A model generated the notes under the pieces. The model saw only the letters and a list, made by a program, of their open reading frames with translations, had not been told where the DNA came from and made no database searches. From contig NZ_LR593887.1 in the NCBI RefSeq assembly GCF_901538355.1, positions 4,564,920-4,628,919 on the forward strand: 64,000 nt of DNA, read 5' to 3'. The position numbers and the translations under genes were made by a program. The stretch comes from Tuwongella immobilis. Lineage in GTDB: Bacteria; Planctomycetota; Planctomycetia; Gemmatales; Gemmataceae. Below, one piece after another: positions 26,302 to 35,377 of this stretch (its first letter is position 1; every line of letters starts with the position of its first letter).

Positions 26302-29300
26302 TTACCGCTTGGGATACGGCGGGGTCGGCGGCACCGGCTTGTATTCCGTGCGAATCTTTTCTTTGGCCACCTTGATGGCCTCGAGCAGTTGCTCGTCGAT
26401 GCCCGCGAATTCCTTGGCCGGGTCGTTATCCACGACGATATCGGGATCCACGCCGTAGCCTTCGATAATCCACGTCTTGCCATCGACGCCAAACCGGGAG
26501 AATTCCGGTCGATTCAGCGTGCCGCCATCCAAGAACGGCAGCGTGCCACGAATGCCGACCGTGCCCCCCCAGCTGCGCTTGCCGATGAGCGTGCCCAGCT
26601 TGTAGTGCTTGAAGCGATACGGGAAGATATCGCCATCGGAGGCGGAGAATTCGTTCATCAGGCAGACCAACGGGCCATTGAACGTGCCGTTGGGTTCCAC
26701 GCCGGGCACACCATTGCGAACAATGCTGTACATGGCGATTTCCCGCCGCAGTCGTTCGATAAGAATCGGCGAGACGTTCCCGCCTCCGTTGCCACGCACG
26801 TCGATAATCAACGCCTTTTTGCCCAATTGCGGGAAGTAGGCTTTGAAGAATTCATTCAACCCGCCGGTGAGCATGTCGGGCACATGCAGGTAGCCCACCT
26901 CGCCGTTGGTCGCGTCTTGCACCTTCTTCAGATTGGTTTGTACCCAATCGTGGTAGTACAAGTTCGCTTCGCTGCCCACCGGAGTGACGACCACTTGCCG
27001 CGAACCTTTGGCTTCGGGCGTCTTGTTGATGGTCAGAATCACCGGCTTATCGGCGGTATTCACCAGCAGTTGCTGAATGTTGGCGACCTCGTTGGTCGGC
27101 TTGCCATTCACGCGGATGATGAATTCCCCTTCGCTGATGTTCAGTCCCAACTCGTTGAGCGGAGCCCGCACCGAGCGATCCCAGTTCGAGCCTTTCAGAA
27201 TCTTGGTAATCTTGGCATATCCCGTTTCGGCATCGCGGGTGAATTGGGCACCCAGCAAGCCCATCGGGACTTTCTTGACTTCGGGCAACTCGCCGCCACC
27301 GACATATGCGTGACCGACGTTCAATTCCGAAATCATTTCACCGATGACATACGACAGATCCGCGCGATGGCGGACATGGGCGACGAGCGGTTCGTACTTC
27401 TTGCGAATGGCGGCCCAATCGTTGCCGTGCATGCCCGGATCGTAGAAGAAATCGCGCATTTGTCGCCACGATTCGACGAAGATTTGCTTCCATTCCGCGG
27501 GGTAATCGATGGTCACTTCCACGGCGGATTCATCGAGCGGCTTGCCCAGATTGAGCGGGCCTTTGGGCAGATCGATGATGTAATGCTTGCCGCCTTGCGC
27601 GACGATCATTTTCTTGCCATCGGCGGAAATCTCGAAGCCGTTGACATTGCCCAGCGTGGTTTCTTTCTTCGCGCCGACATCGAACAGCGTCAATCCGCCG
27701 GGGACTTTCTGATACCAAACACTGCTGCCGACGGATTGCAGCCCGCCGTAATTCCCCGCCGAAATCGGCAGGCTAAGCGTGCGTTCGATGATGCCATCGA
27801 GATCAATATCGATCGGGGCCGGGGCATCGCCTTCCTTCTTCGCTGCGGGTGCGGGCGGCGTGGCGGCGACATCGTCCAACTTGGTCGCAAACGGATTCGG
27901 CGTCTCGTTCGAGAGCGTCACCAAATAAATCTTCGACATATCCCGATACGCATAATTCCATTCCACAGCACTGGGGAACGGGTTGAAATCGCGATTCGAG
28001 ACGAAGAACAGATACTTGCCGTCCCCGCTGAATGCCGGGCTGCTGACGGTGTAGAACGGATCGGTCACGGGCGTCGATTTGCCGGTTTCCAGCGAGTGCA
28101 AATAGACTCGGGAGAACGCCGCCACTTCCGGATTGACATAGGCAATCCAGCGGCTATCCGGCGACCAGACATACTGACGAATTTCAAATCCCTTGGATTC
28201 GGCAATCGTCGAGACTTTCTTCGTGGCCAGATCGACCACATGCAGCTTTTGCTCGCGGTCGGTCCAGGCAATCTTCTTGCTATCCGGCGACCAGAGCAGA
28301 TCGTACTTGTAGTTTTTGCTGCCGGCGGTCACGGCCATTGGCGGGCCGCTGCCATCGGCGGGAATCGTGTAGATTTCGTCTTCCCCGCTGGCATCGCTAA
28401 TGTAGGCAATCGATTTGCCATCCGGCGACCATTTCGGATTGCGATCATGCACGCCCGGGGTGGCAGTCAGATTCTTGGTCAGGCCATTTTCTTGCGGCAC
28501 CGTGAACAGATCGCCGCGCGCTCCCAGCAGCGCCTTCTTTCCATCCGGCGAAATTTCAAACGCACCAACATTCCCCGAGACATTCCGGGTGGCGGAGCGA
28601 ATTTCCGAGAAATCTTCGACGATCGAAATCGTCAGTTTTTCGGTCTTCTTGGTTTGCAGATCAAATCGGTAGATGTAGCCGCCGTTTTCGAAGACAATCG
28701 AGGTATCGCCCAGCGACGGGAATTTGATGTCGAATTCCTTGAATCGCGTAAATTCCGAGATTTCCTTGGTGGCGATGTTCACCCCATACAGATTCATCCG
28801 CTGATCATCGCCGCGATCGGAGATGAAATAGACCGTGTCTCCCGCCCACATGGGGATAATGTCTTGCGCGGCATTCTCGACCAATCGGGTGGTCTGCTTG
28901 GTGGCAAAATCATACGTCCAGACATCGTCGGCCATGCCACCGCGGTAGCGTTTCCAGGTGCGGAATTCGCGGAACACGCGGTTGTACACCAATTGTTTGC
29001 CATCGGGGGAATAGCTGGCGAATCCGCCGCGGGGCAACGGCAGCGGTTCGGCCGGGCCACCATCCACGCTGACCGTGTACAGTTGGCCCAGGAAGTCGTT
29101 GAACGTGGTCATTCGGGAGCGAAACAGCACGCGCTTCCCGTCCGGGGACCAGCCCATGACGATGTTATTCGGCCCCATGCGATCGCTAACTTCGTCTCGA
29201 GAGAGCGTCGCGGTGTAGGTCAACCGCTTGGGCACGCCCCCCTCGGCGGGGATGGTATAGACCTCGGTATTGCCATCATATTGGCCGGTAAAGGCGATGG

Positions 29301-29541
29301 TCTTGCCATCGGGCGAGAATCGCGGGAACATCTCGTAGCCAGCGTGCGAGGTTAATCGCCGCGCCACGCCCCCCTTGAGGGCGACGGTGTACAGGTTCCC
29401 GGCATAGCTGAAGACGACCGAATCGCCGTGCTGCGTGGGAAAGCGCAGCAAGCGCGTTTCCTCGGCGGCCAATACGCGGGAACTGCCCGACAGGGTCAAG
29501 ACCCCCATCAGCAGGGCAATGCCCCAAGATCGAACGGACAT
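26302..29541 (-). CDS. Tricorn-like exported protease (beta-propeller, PDZ, S41 domain)
   Basis: The 1,079-residue protein starts with a signal peptide ending V-L-A-A, so unlike the archaeal tricorn it is exported. Many PD40/WD40-like repeats (SPDGK motifs) fill residues about 30-660, forming two propellers that in tricorn guide peptides. A PDZ-like domain spans about 763-840. The C-terminal S41/tail-specific peptidase core carries NEFSASDGD, with the probable catalytic Ser near residue 968, followed by WGGTVGIRG. It should degrade peptides in the periplasm. AAGG lies 9 nt before the ATG at 29541. A promoter with a perfect -10 box lies about 65-95 nt upstream. No gene adjacent suggests a specific target. 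Confidence 0.9.
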
Positions 29542-29605
29542 GCAACCCATCCTTCACATGTGGTGAATGCGTCCTACCGTCGGGTAGAACAGGGAATCTG
29601 GGGGC

Positions 29606-30803: not shown

Positions 30804-31448
30804 TTAGCCGACGGGTTCCTTGCGTACACGCTTGAATGTCGCGGTAATGCCCGCGCCTTTGATGGCGTCGAGAATCTTGACCTCCACGCCCCAAGGCACC
30901 CCCTGCGTATCCAGGAATACCTCGGTCTTGCGTTCCCGCTCCACAATCTGGCGAATCTTCTTCTCCAAGTCCGACTCGCGCACCACCTCTTCATCCACGC
31001 GAATCACGGATTGATTGCCTTCCTTGCGGGCGACAATGCGGATGAGCTGCTGGACTTCTTCCTTCTGAATCGAGCGCGGTTTGGCCCCTTTGCCGCCTTC
31101 TTTCTCGACGTTGGCGGTCGGCAATTCAATCGCCTTGCGCTCAAAATCGACGGCCGTTTTCAGCATGAAAAAGATCAGCAACACCAGCGCCACGTCAATC
31201 AGCGGGTTCATGTCTAGCCGTGTGTCGTCTTCCATCGGAATCGGCGTCGGCGGCAGCATCTCTTCGATGGCTTTGGCAAAGTGCGGATGCGTTTCCAGCG
31301 GTTGCCAATCGCGGTCGTGCGGGCCACGGACTTCATCCGTCGGTTCCCAGACATCCTCACGAATGGCGTCGAGAATTTCTTCATCGGTCAGCGTTTCCCC
31401 CGCGAGCGCGGAACCAGCGGGGCGGACCATCCAGCGTGTCGCGCTCAT
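30804..31448 (-). CDS. ExbD/TolR-like protein with GYF_2-like N-terminal domain
   Basis: The 214-residue protein has one transmembrane helix at about residues 80-100, in the context DMNPLIDVALVLLIFFMLKT. This is the ExbD/TolR signature, whose Asp is needed for proton flow. The C-terminal periplasmic part ends GAGITATFKRV. Unusually, the N-terminal 70 cytoplasmic residues (WMVRPAG...W-Q-P-L-E region) resemble the GYF_2 domain, a planctomycete-rich protein-interaction module. The start overlaps the second ExbD gene by 4 nt, indicating translational coupling. It should energise an outer-membrane or periplasmic process with the ExbB upstream. Confidence 0.85.
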   Translation of the reverse strand: MSATRWMVRPAGSALAGETLTDEEILDAIREDVWEPTDEVRGPHDRDWQPLETHPHFAKAIEEMLPPTPIPMEDDTRLDMNPLIDVALVLLIFFMLKTAVDFERKAIELPTANVEKEGGKGAKPRSIQKEEVQQLIRIVARKEGNQSVIRVDEEVVRESDLEKKIRQIVERERKTEVFLDTQGVPWGVEVKILDAIKGAGITATFKRVRKEPVG

Positions 31449-32206
31449 GGGGATTTCTGGTTCACCTCGGCAAGCAGGGTCTCAATGGGAACGCCTTGGA
31501 CTTTGCGGGCCTCCAACTCATACGCCAACTGTTCGACCAACTCGCACGGCAGATCGCGGTGCATGGCAATATGCACTTGCACGGGCTTGGTTTCTCGGCG
31601 GAGCAGCTCATCGAATTTCGCAAACAATTTCGCCTGCGAATCGAGCCGTTCATCTCCCGCCTTCGGCTCTTTGCCATCCCGGCTGATCGCATACAACGGC
31701 GTATCGCCCGGCCCTTTTTCGACGCCAATCCAGTACGAACCTTTGGCATTCGCCGTGATCGAAATATTCTGCGTATCGGGCACATTCACCCGCGCCACCG
31801 GGGCCACTTTCGCCGTCATCATGAAGAAGACCAGCAGCACCAGCGAAATATCGATCAGCGGAATCATATCGACTTCATCGTCATCATCATCATGATGTCG
31901 AGGCCACGCTTCATCGGGCGGCTGCAATGGCGGTTCGGGGGGGGCTGGCGGGGCGTTGCCGGATTTCCGGGCGGATTCTGCGGCTTCAGACACCGCCAAC
32001 GCGCCGGCCAAATCCGGCACATACAGCGAAAATTGCTGCGATTGGCCGAACGCTTGCCAATTTTTCTGCCCGGCTTCGCTCACCCGATCTTCGACCGTGA
32101 GCTTCCCCTGCAGCAGCCACTCGGTAATCACCCCGAATGGCACCTGGCGAAAGACTTTGTTGGCCTGCACAAACCAGACATCGTAGGTTGGCTGCTTGCT
32201 CGCCAT
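31445..32206 (-). CDS. Second ExbD/TolR-like protein with GYF_2 N-terminal domain
   Basis: This 253-residue paralogue starts with a clear GYF_2-like domain (DVWFVQANK...RQVPFGVITEWLLQGKLT, then W-Q-A-F), then a Pro-rich and His/Asp-rich linker, then the ExbD helix VDMIPLIDISLVLLVFFMM at about residues 112-131 with the Asp in place. The periplasmic C-terminus shows QVHIAMHRDLPCEL-type motifs of TolR/ExbD. AAGGAGGG lies 7 nt before the ATG. It sits between the ExbB gene and the other ExbD in a tight operon, with 26 nt to ExbB and a 4-nt overlap on the other side. Confidence 0.87.
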   Translation of the reverse strand: MASKQPTYDVWFVQANKVFRQVPFGVITEWLLQGKLTVEDRVSEAGQKNWQAFGQSQQFSLYVPDLAGALAVSEAAESARKSGNAPPAPPEPPLQPPDEAWPRHHDDDDDEVDMIPLIDISLVLLVFFMMTAKVAPVARVNVPDTQNISITANAKGSYWIGVEKGPGDTPLYAISRDGKEPKAGDERLDSQAKLFAKFDELLRRETKPVQVHIAMHRDLPCELVEQLAYELEARKVQGVPIETLLAEVNQKSP

Positions 32207-32232
32207 GGCGAATCCCTCCTTCGCACGGCGAG

Positions 32233-32910
32233 TTAGCGACGGGCCAATTCCGGCTCACCCGAGGAACGGCTGCTCCCCTTGGTGGCGTTAAAGTTCTGCA
32301 TCACCACCAGAAACTTCTGGGCCGACAATTTCATGCGGGCCTCAAATCGGGCGATGAAATCCTTGAACAACACATGGAAGAACACCAGCGGAATCGCGGT
32401 GATGAGTCCCAGCGCGGTGGCGAACAACGCCAGACCGATGGCCCCGGCTTGCGAGCCGACCGCAGAGGGATCGCCACTGCTGTTGCTGATGGCGGAGAAC
32501 GTGTTAATCATCGAAATGACGGTCCCCAGCAGGCCGACCATCGTGGAAATTTTGGCGATTGCCAGAATCGGGGCGAGCAGGAAATTCATCTTCGGCATGA
32601 TTTCCAACTCCATGGTGGTGGCCATGTTGCGCTTCATCGCCGCCAGCCCTTGTGGGGCCGCTTCCAGCCCGGCGACGAACAGCTTGTTGGGAATCACCCC
32701 CGGTTCCACTTTGCACATCTTCAGCACCGCGTCCACCCCGCCCCGTTGGAGGCGTTCTTGGAACGCGGGCATAAAGTCATCCATATCCGTTTTCAGATTG
32801 ATATTGAGCAGCCAGCGCCAGGCGACCAGCACCAACGCGGTCAGCGACATGAGAAACATGGGGACCGCGAAATACCACTCATCGGTCACGAAGTGCTTAA
32901 AGGCTTCCAT
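32233..32910 (-). CDS. MotA/TolQ/ExbB proton channel family protein
   Basis: This 225-residue protein contains an N-terminal membrane helix (about 12-32) and two further helices around residues 110-195. The conserved TolQ/ExbB segment is ISTMVGLLGTVISMINTF, followed by GLALFATALGLITAIP, which form the proton channel with ExbD. GAGGG lies 5 nt before the ATG at 32910; the longer frame upstream overlaps hisA and is not supported. With two ExbD genes it forms a complete three-gene Exb/Tol-type energiser, but no TonB or TolB/Pal gene is near, so its outer-membrane partner is unknown. Confidence 0.9.
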   Translation of the reverse strand: MEAFKHFVTDEWYFAVPMFLMSLTALVLVAWRWLLNINLKTDMDDFMPAFQERLQRGGVDAVLKMCKVEPGVIPNKLFVAGLEAAPQGLAAMKRNMATTMELEIMPKMNFLLAPILAIAKISTMVGLLGTVISMINTFSAISNSSGDPSAVGSQAGAIGLALFATALGLITAIPLVFFHVLFKDFIARFEARMKLSAQKFLVVMQNFNATKGSSRSSGEPELARR

Positions 32911-32986: not shown

Positions 32987-33733
32987 TCAAGTCGTGACTC
33001 CCAATGCCGCCCAGACTTGCGGCAACGTGATGGCATCTTCATACAGCGCGCGGCCAATAATCACCCCGGCTAACCCGCGATCCCGCAGGCGCACGATTTG
33101 ATCCGCTGCCGTGATTCCACCCGACGCGATGACGGGCAGCTTGACCGCCGCCGCCATTTCCGCTTGGGCTTCTTCGTTTGGGCCGCTCATCATGCCATCG
33201 CGGGCGATGTCGGTGTAGACGATACCTGCCAGGGGCCAGCCATCGCACATCCGGGCGAGTTCGAGCGCGGAGCGGGTCGAGGTGTGCAACCACCCTTCGG
33301 TCGCCACCATGCCATCGCGGGCATCCAATCCCAGCACAATCTTTCCGGGAAACCGCGTCGCCATGCTTTCCAACCATGCCGGATCTTGCAACGCGCGAGT
33401 GCCCAAGACAATGCGGGCGACGCCGAGATCGAAGGTGAGCGCGAGATGATCTGCAGTGCGAATGCCCCCACCGACTTGGCAGGGGACACCCGTTGCTTTC
33501 ACGATCGCCTGAATGACTTGCGAATTGACCGGATGCCCCGCCTTGGCACCGTCCAGATCGACCAGATGCAGCACGTTGGCACCATCGGCCACCCAGCGCT
33601 GCCCCATCGCGGCGGGGTCATCGGAAAAAATCGTCTCTTGGGCATAATCGCCCTGCCGAAGCCGCACACACCGGCCACCGCGGAGATCAATCGCCGGATA
33701 AATCAACATTTCGTTCTTCGGCACCGACTGCAT
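32987..33733 (-). CDS. hisA: HisA, phosphoribosylformimino-AICAR-phosphate isomerase
   Basis: HisA opens the ribose ring of ProFAR in histidine biosynthesis. The 248 residues fit the half-barrel repeat: YPAIDLRGGRCVRL with the first catalytic Asp, GGGIRT phosphate-binding loop, YTDIARDG with the second catalytic Asp, and ASGGI...GVIIGRALY near the C-terminus. GGAA is 5 nt before the ATG at 33733. No other his genes are present. It follows the orphan 472-residue membrane protein by 15 nt, so it is probably co-transcribed with it and placed before the ExbB gene rather than in a his operon. Confidence 0.95.
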   Translation of the reverse strand: MQSVPKNEMLIYPAIDLRGGRCVRLRQGDYAQETIFSDDPAAMGQRWVADGANVLHLVDLDGAKAGHPVNSQVIQAIVKATGVPCQVGGGIRTADHLALTFDLGVARIVLGTRALQDPAWLESMATRFPGKIVLGLDARDGMVATEGWLHTSTRSALELARMCDGWPLAGIVYTDIARDGMMSGPNEEAQAEMAAAVKLPVIASGGITAADQIVRLRDRGLAGVIIGRALYEDAITLPQVWAALGVTT

Positions 33734-33748
33734 ACCATTTCCATCCGA

Positions 33749-35167
33749 TCAAGGCATTCCCGGATTTCCACCCGGCCCGGTGGCCTGCACCCGATCCAAA
33801 TCGCTTTGCAGACCGACAATTTGCCAATCCAACCGTGACGATCGTCCCAAGAACGAGACTTTCGAAACATCCACATACGTATTCGGGTTCGATTTTGCTT
33901 CCGCCGCGAGTTCCTGCAACTTCTTGAGAATCTCTGGCGATCGCGATTCCATCACCACTCGCCCGCGAGCATACGTCTTGGATTCGTTGTACGATAGTTC
34001 CACATCCACCAATGCTTGAAGGCGATCCGGCAACAGTCGCACTTCCGGGAACGTCGGATTCGGGCTATTCGACGCGGTACCGCCCGGCACGATCCGGCCC
34101 AACGACCAGATTTGCGTGAAGAATTCGCGGCGTTGTTCTGCCGAAGATTCGCTGCCAGTATCGGTCTTCAGGAAGTCAGATTTGCCGAATTCTTCCAACG
34201 GAACGGGTGCGCGACGCGGTGCGGCACTCCCCAGCGAACCGGCCATGAGCATCGAGGCGGTCACGCGATCGACATAGTTTTGTTGTTGATCCGGGGTCAA
34301 TGTCAGCAGCAGGGCTTGTTCGATTTGCCGGGTGCCCATGAGGGTGAAGAACAGCCGCATGAATTCGGCGGAGTTGCCTCGGACTTCCCGAATCGCGTTG
34401 CCATATGCCGTGAATCGGGCCGCGCCCAGCATCGCCTGATCGCCCAGGAAATTGATGTGCCACTGCCGCCCGACCAGTTCGCGGCCTTCGCTGCCCATCA
34501 TCGGCATGGTCACGTCGATCTGCCCTTCACCGCTGCTAATGCGGTACAGTTGCACCACATCGAAGCCGGTGGGCTGTTGCTCCCACGCCTTCACGCCCAA
34601 GCCATCAATGGAGACGCCGTTGGGATTGCGTTGGAAGTAGCGGACCAATTCACTACTGCGGAATCCGGTGAGTTTTTCGCCGAAGGCGGCTTCGAGAGCC
34701 AAACCATCGCGCGGGCTGACCCCCGTACGACGGGCGGGATCCAACGTCATCACGAATGCCGAATTGATGTCACCTTCGTTGAGGTACGAGAAGAATTTGC
34801 GGGCAAAGGTGTCCGATTGTTGGCGGATGGCCAATTCAAACGCGACGATATATGCCAAATAGCCCAACCCGCCCAAAACGCTGATCCACCAGGCAATCCC
34901 GGCCAATCGCATGCCGTCGAGTGTGCCTTCGGATCGAGAGATTCGCAGTCGCGCGAGCACGGCCAACACCAAGCTGGCAATCGGCATCAGCAGCAAACCG
35001 GGCACCACTGCGGGCTTGCGCGAGGTGATCGCGGCCAGCCCCATCAGCAGGACAATGCCGAGGAACAACCCCGCGAAGCTAACGGCGACAATCGCCAGGG
35101 GAGCCAAAGGCTTGTAACTGACCGGATCGGCCGGTCGATCTGCAGGAGAAGGGATGGGTTCGACCAT
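33749..35167 (-). CDS. Orphan membrane protein with large soluble C-terminal region
   Basis: The 472-residue protein begins with a Pro-rich cytoplasmic segment, then three hydrophobic helices at about 23-45, 55-72 and 88-112, resembling DUF4190-like membrane modules. The remaining 360 residues are soluble, with a predicted alpha/beta character and no recognised motif. The start at 35167 is chosen because M-V-E-P opens the Pro-rich segment; the 19 residues before it lack a usable ribosome site. It lies 15 nt upstream of hisA. Function unknown. Confidence 0.65.
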   Translation of the reverse strand: MVEPIPSPADRPADPVSYKPLAPLAIVAVSFAGLFLGIVLLMGLAAITSRKPAVVPGLLLMPIASLVLAVLARLRISRSEGTLDGMRLAGIAWWISVLGGLGYLAYIVAFELAIRQQSDTFARKFFSYLNEGDINSAFVMTLDPARRTGVSPRDGLALEAAFGEKLTGFRSSELVRYFQRNPNGVSIDGLGVKAWEQQPTGFDVVQLYRISSGEGQIDVTMPMMGSEGRELVGRQWHINFLGDQAMLGAARFTAYGNAIREVRGNSAEFMRLFFTLMGTRQIEQALLLTLTPDQQQNYVDRVTASMLMAGSLGSAAPRRAPVPLEEFGKSDFLKTDTGSESSAEQRREFFTQIWSLGRIVPGGTASNSPNPTFPEVRLLPDRLQALVDVELSYNESKTYARGRVVMESRSPEILKKLQELAAEAKSNPNTYVDVSKVSFLGRSSRLDWQIVGLQSDLDRVQATGPGGNPGMP

Positions 35168-35377
35168 ATCAGCAAGCCGCCGCGTGAGGGTGATTATGCA
35201 AAACAAGCCGCCGACCGGAACCATCTTCGGTCGGCAGCCGGTGCTGATTCTACGATCCCCGATTCCAAACGGTTCGCCCCAACACCCAAGCTCACCGGCG
35301 AGACCGAGTGAGCGATGAATTCCAGAAACCTGACATGCCCCCCCGATCCGGCGCAGCGATTGGGGCGGAACGGAACC

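Follow-up and report, generated by a model that had tools for sequence, protein, structure and literature searches.

The 64,000-nucleotide window analysed here (positions 4,564,920 to 4,628,919 of contig NZ_LR593887.1, forward strand) comes from Tuwongella immobilis, whose 6.69-Mb genome is assembled as one contig. It contains an operon of one exbB and two exbD genes, and both ExbD proteins (ExbD-A and ExbD-B) open with a head that resembles the GYF domain. Based on this operon and its relatives, we favour, with a little better than even confidence, the reading that it encodes a proton-driven motor of the 5:2 type, in which two unlike ExbDs carry cytoplasmic GYF-fold heads as docking or input modules and a protein encoded elsewhere in the genome, RWT (named after its invariant Arg-Trp), serves as the transducer.

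All three genes lie on the minus strand. The gene exbB (32233–32910; 225 amino acids) encodes an ExbB/TolQ-type channel subunit (Pfam MotA_ExbB, 1.9e-19); it starts at the ATG at 32910 and not at an upstream TTG, and Met1 is invariant in the 26 aligned ExbB sequences. After a gap of 26 nt follows exbD-A (31445–32206; 253 amino acids; Pfam ExbD, 3.8e-12), which overlaps exbD-B (30804–31448; 214 amino acids; Pfam ExbD, 3.3e-14) by 4 nt. ExbD-A consists of the head (residues 1–64; 32015–32206), a linker, a membrane helix (31805–31870) and a periplasmic ExbD domain; ExbD-B has the same arrangement, with the head in residues 1–63 (31260–31448), a short linker and the membrane helix at 31146–31211. 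Each ExbD was aligned with 29 relatives (alignments A1 for ExbD-A and A2 for ExbD-B, 30 sequences each) and modelled (m87014a01bd06 and m97fcb3f19012, respectively). The start codons of the relatives were chosen by a script or set to the earliest start in the reading frame, so some of their N-terminal extensions may be false. The linkers differ in composition: that of ExbD-A in the window is proline-rich and acidic, that of ExbD-B short. The preliminary description of this DNA had proposed a coupled operon of one ExbB and two ExbDs with linkers of unlike composition, and coordinates, strand, gap, overlap and linkers all agree with it.

Concerning the motor core, all tested features of the ExbB/ExbD family are present. 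ExbB passes the cut-off of PF01618 (ExbB/TolQ/MotA; 70.1 bits vs 22.9), and ExbD-A and ExbD-B pass that of PF02472 (ExbD/TolR; 46.8 and 53.5 bits, respectively, vs 25.4). Thr130 and Thr165 of ExbB are invariant in the 26 sequences and align to Thr residues of solved ExbB; we take them to be the channel-lining Thr of the third and fourth ExbB helices. The stretches GTV and ATA are also common to the window ExbB and the solved ExbB 6ye4. In the membrane helices, Asp119 of ExbD-A and Asp85 of ExbD-B are each invariant in 30 sequences and align to the helix Asp of solved TolR (9ddm_Y) and to residue 25 of solved ExbD (6tyi_Y), respectively. The modelled periplasmic domains match TolR 5by4 (ExbD-A: Z 9.8, rmsd 3.0 over 87) and ExbD 8p9r (ExbD-B: Z 10.2, rmsd 2.2 over 72). 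Yet by the equivalog cut-offs the two proteins are not TolR or ExbD proper: neither reaches the NCBIfam cut-offs for TolR or ExbD, the best scores being 36.8 and 43.2 bits for TIGR02801, against 127.3.

Each ExbD opens with a conserved domain, some 60 residues long, that has invariant Trp and Asp positions across two families. Since direct scans against Pfam and NCBIfam were negative, the likeness to GYF_2 was assessed by profile–profile comparison. The NCBIfam scan of the window proteins gave no GYF_2 match, and a genome-wide search for GYF_2 at E≤0.001 found two places elsewhere only, neither of them a window head. At the family level, weak GYF_2 matches at E≤1 are seen in five of the 30 ExbD-A sequences (best 0.0084) and seven of the 30 ExbD-B sequences (best 0.0015). 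The GYF_2 profile for the comparison was built from 28 stretches with a Pfam GYF_2 match in other proteins of the host genome and its relatives. Against this profile hhalign gave 94.8% for the heads of ExbD-A and 94.5% for those of ExbD-B, and 96.2% for the two head profiles against each other, whereas column-shuffled controls (60 each) reached at most 8.6% and 6.2%, respectively. The alignments span 39–40 columns (the helix, the third strand and the Trp), with the first strands outside.

The AlphaFold models of the heads, made with the 30-sequence alignments, have the order strand–strand–helix–strand, with block-mean pLDDT over residues 1–60 of 88–97 (ExbD-A) and 91–97 (ExbD-B). For the ExbD-A model, Foldseek places GYF domains (Smy2, GIGYF1 and Myxococcus GltJ) at ranks 1, 3–7 and 9, with E 0.0098–0.043 and prob 0.93–1.00. 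In VIA-align the head of ExbD-A matches the Smy2 GYF domain 3fma (Z 7.0, rmsd 2.3 Å over 58), GIGYF1 (Z 6.7) and GltJ 7z3c (Z 6.5, rmsd 3.2 Å over 62). The head of ExbD-B matches the GIGYF1 GYF domain 7ruq (Z 6.2, rmsd 2.9 Å over 58), and a chloroplast translocon chain with Z 7.7, above its GYF value; these values are modest for a small domain, and a VIA-align Z under 8 may reflect a common arrangement. The GYF-like identity of the heads is thus carried by the sequence profiles, with which the comparison of predicted models agrees modestly. In ExbD and TolR the N-terminus is cytoplasmic, a single helix follows and the ExbD domain is periplasmic; based on this topology the heads are placed in the cytoplasm, the side on which they had been expected, and the match of the predicted periplasmic domains to TolR and ExbD is consistent with it.

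The distribution of the headed ExbDs was studied in the two nearest families (f1 and f2; 44 genomes), which we take to be Gemmatales, and the class to be Planctomycetia. ExbD-B relatives are found in records of Gemmataceae and Gemmatales, including Zavarzinella formosa, Limnoglobus roseus and Gemmata. Of the 44 genomes, 31 have headed forms of both ExbD-A and ExbD-B (one of these, G028, with a weak, split ExbD-A match). In the remaining 13 genomes there are five matches to the ExbD-B profile, none of which spans the head. An ExbD-B relative is also found in L239, a record titled Bacteroidales, and this title may be a mislabel.

In other families the head of the second ExbD is exchanged for other domains. 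We compared 36 exbD pairs from these families, 34 linked to RWT and two from the family f3 that were fetched via ExbD. Of the 36 ExbD-B proteins, 25 have a zinc-ribbon motif, six a GYF-like head and four a Ser/Thr kinase, and one has none of these. The zinc ribbon was counted as C-x2-C, 12–24 residues and C-x2-C within the first 90 residues; its family is not settled, since the best single Pfam zinc-ribbon model among the matches listed covers at most 10 of the 36. The six GYF-like heads were called with the head profiles and the GYF_2 profile, at a best E per protein of 2.6e-5 or lower, and Pfam GYF_2 itself matches two of the 36 (E≤0.01). One ExbD-B (G071) scored slightly higher with the ExbD-A profile and was assigned by gene order. 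Pkinase is matched by four of the 36, all of which contain the [VA]A[VI]K, HRD and DFG motifs (L189:3769-5340, L191:3633-5231, L194:3678-5213 and L200:3690-5318). In the kinase form that was scanned in detail, Pkinase (1.1e-48) and ExbD (1.6e-19) are found in one reading frame. The kinase–ExbD fusions adjoin exbB and a headless exbD, and they come from four genera within a different planctomycete family.

The sole pair of the 36 with GYF-like heads on both ExbDs is that of G105 (L208:3161-4540), a genome outside f1 and f2 (best-domain E 1.9e-14 and 2.8e-10), where RWT is found in the operon. Against the f1/f2 profile its ExbB reaches 176 bits, compared with 58–109 in the other loci studied at class level, and because of this high score lateral transfer is possible. 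Since unrelated domains, including a signalling enzyme, are swapped at one cytoplasmic position, an input or docking role of the head is preferred over a structural one. To judge from these sequences, the exchange suggests cytoplasmic control of the motor, a role that it supports and does not prove.

Concerning the output of the motor, no TonB C-terminal domain (TonB_C) was found in a search of the host genome, in which the controls were positive in 3 of 14. The candidate partner is RWT, a protein of 307–376 amino acids in which a single N-terminal helix is followed by a glycine-rich linker and a C-terminal domain that is conserved. A Pfam scan of six RWTs gave no match of any kind, and hence none to vWA. 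Comparison of RWT with solved structures was set aside: the best matches lie in the glycine-rich linker (profile positions about 136–185) and the others are chance-like. RWT is present in 182 of the 198 genomes of the class that were searched. We studied 48 loci centred on RWT in other families, of which 38 were spread over genera among the matches listed and 10 came from a separate search; the one-strand order RWT–exbB–exbD–exbD is seen in 34, and in one the nearby motor genes are on the opposite strand. In f1 and f2, RWT adjoins the headed operon, in convergent orientation, in 5 of the 31 genomes examined. Of the genomes that have the headed pair, 30 of 31 contain RWT, as do 5 of the 13 that lack the pair (Fisher p 5.7e-5, kinship ignored), and among genomes at least 90% complete RWT is found in 27 of 27 with the pair and 3 of 8 without it (p 1.7e-4, kinship ignored). 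Judged by gene order and co-occurrence, RWT is the likely partner of the motor. The preliminary description had noted that no TonB is near and had left the target unknown; the first part extends to the whole genome as regards TonB_C, and the second is narrowed by the genetic linkage of RWT to such motors.

In the mechanism that we favour, an ExbB pentamer would form the proton channel around two ExbD helices, as in 5:2 motors, and ExbD-A and ExbD-B would form the shaft, probably with one copy of each. The heads would dock a cytoplasmic protein or peptide and thereby position the motor or alter its gating. RWT, to go by gene order, would pass the motion of the ExbD pair across the periplasm.

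Several observations weigh against this reading. By hmmscan the two ExbDs of the window have no match to Pfam GYF_2 (PF14237) at E≤1; taken literally, for the single sequences this is the result that the preliminary description had named as refuting its GYF_2-like N-termini, a claim that stands at the level of the family profiles and the head fold. The Gly-Pro signature of GYF_2 before the helix is replaced by VP in ExbD-A and has no counterpart in ExbD-B. Foldseek gives no match below E 0.001 for the ExbD-A model, and for some of its rows the rmsd is large; for the ExbD-B model TolR and ExbD are best, and no GYF domain is found among the 50 matches listed. In two genomes (G003 and G020) exbD-A and exbD-B are apart, on different contigs, and in G003 they are not at contig ends. 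In 35 of the 36 pairs from other families, no GYF-like or zinc-ribbon head is recognised on ExbD-A, as judged by the head and GYF_2 profiles and the zinc-ribbon pattern, without a Pfam scan; heads on both subunits are therefore not needed for this type of motor. Eight weak matches of these ExbD-A proteins to the GYF_2 or head profiles (E 0.00092–0.018) were not taken as heads: seven of the proteins have fewer than 40 residues ahead of the helix, and in the eighth (L195; 168 residues, with a script-chosen start) the position of the match was not resolved.

The part of RWT is likewise open to objection. The single copy in the host genome (G000:C1:2727162-2728118; L163:5163-6206, minus strand) lies 1.87 Mb from the operon. 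RWT is present and the headed pair absent in five f1 genomes, and the reverse holds for one genome (G043). RWT is alone within the stretch in 13 of the 48 loci, including all nine of f3, and no RWT was found beside the two separately fetched exbB–exbD–exbD sets of f3. A Ser/His pattern in the RWT helix, which recalls TonB and TolA, is found in many RWTs of f1 and f2; in the host genome there is a Tyr instead, and the pattern is absent from the other families aligned. Given the linked order elsewhere, the isolated copies in f3 and the distance here, RWT looks like an old partner of the motor that may have moved away in Gemmatales and f3.

A broader reading is offered more tentatively, and our confidence in it is limited. 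It would see a class-wide motor family in which one ExbD is the regulatory input, with an exchangeable GYF-like, zinc-ribbon or Ser/Thr-kinase head, both ExbDs being headed in Gemmatales and the output running via RWT and not via TonB or TolA. The kinase forms would then be receptor kinases with a motor-shaft helix, in which the state of the channel and phosphorylation could be directly coupled.

The heads could instead be structural: by pairing with each other, the one of ExbD-A with the one of ExbD-B, or with loops of ExbB, they would enforce a mixed ExbD assembly without any signal. This would fit the occurrence of both exbD genes in the same genomes, and the two head profiles do match each other somewhat better than they match GYF_2. 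However, pairing of heads is not general, given that 35 of the 36 pairs of other families have a head on ExbD-B only or none, and a Ser/Thr kinase in the same slot is hard to square with a mere scaffold; we regard this alternative as rather unlikely. Poorer still are the prospects of the proposal that the heads bind proline-rich stretches inside the complex, such as the ExbD linkers, to serve as a plug or latch in the manner of the flagellar stator plug. Proline-rich peptides are ligands of GYF domains (title of 3fma), the ExbD-A linker of the window is proline-rich, and 16 of the 30 ExbD-B linkers contain PP and nine PPP. But PP is found in just 5 of the 30 ExbD-A linkers, so that the proline-richness of ExbD-A is not general, and in none of the seven ExbD-B linkers of f2; the GYF signature is also not retained.

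Disfavoured most of all is an ordinary Tol- or Ton-like energiser with neutral N-terminal extensions, which we think very improbable. The ExbB/ExbD core is standard, as that explanation would have it, but the heads are conserved over two families with invariant Trp and Asp, unlike neutral tails, both ExbDs miss the equivalog cut-offs, and the genome search gave no TonB_C.

Concerning the surroundings of the operon, hisA (32987–33733) lies immediately upstream of it. Besides RWT, hisA is a neighbour of the operon in 11 of 33 stretches of f1 and f2, and a gene resembling a translation GTPase (by eye) in 9 of 33; both are read as housekeeping neighbours. Upstream of hisA, a protein of 491 amino acids (33749–35224, minus strand) is matched by no NCBIfam family and by no Pfam family above its cut-off. 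On the other side of the operon, a tricorn-type protease of 1082 amino acids (26302–29550, minus strand) contains PD40 repeats, a PDZ domain and an S41 peptidase domain. A plasmid search with ExbD-A as the query gave no match. The host genome also has a second exbB–exbD–exbD set (L182:5291-8418; G000:C1:3289000-3303000), with ExbDs of 179 and 203 amino acids in which Pfam finds ExbD alone, and with a protein of 358 amino acids next to them. An identity of this set with the vWA system of PMC12204202 was not confirmed: the next gene (L182:7345-8418) has no Pfam match.

Accounts of Ton and Tol motors commonly have them run on the proton gradient and say little about cytoplasmic control. Where a motor shaft bears interchangeable modules on its cytoplasmic side, a kinase among them, such control can be put to a direct test; the motor is also a candidate for how energy might reach the outer envelope in a planctomycete whose genome has no TonB C-terminal domain that could be recognised. 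A literature search found no description of headed ExbDs among the entries listed, with most subscription papers outside its reach. A link to the polarity proteins MglA and MglB was considered and dropped: a search of 59 genomes gave no MglB-type Robl_LC7 protein (with positive controls in 3 of 14; MglA was not searched).

The core of the system is that of ExbB–ExbD–TonB and TolQ–TolR–TolA of E. coli, with the same helix Asp and the same periplasmic ExbD fold. In contrast to E. coli Ton and Tol, there are here two unlike ExbDs with folded cytoplasmic heads and no TonB_C found in the genome, and the candidate RWT differs from TonB and TolA by a C-terminal domain without a Pfam match. Compared with proteins that contain GYF_2 (PF14237), the heads have the same profile and fold, but lie below direct detection and are fused to ExbD. 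The Agl-Glt gliding machinery of Myxococcus is driven by an ExbB/ExbD-type motor, AglRQS, and the GYF domain of GltJ is cytoplasmic and lies beside a zinc finger. As a GYF domain in a trans-envelope machine, GltJ (7z3c) is the nearest parallel for the heads; since no MglB-type protein was found, the parallel is limited to architecture. PMC12204202 describes and models a PVC-group system of one TolQ-like gene and two different TolR-like genes, which resembles the present one in this gene set and in a helix-anchored periplasmic transducer; as presented there, the C-terminal domain of this force transducer is a vWA domain and there is a TPR neighbour, whereas RWT has no Pfam match, and section 8 of that article does not mention cytoplasmic heads. 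In GltJ the GYF domain and the zinc finger are on a separate membrane protein, whereas in the motors described here the GYF-like and zinc-ribbon heads are on ExbD itself.

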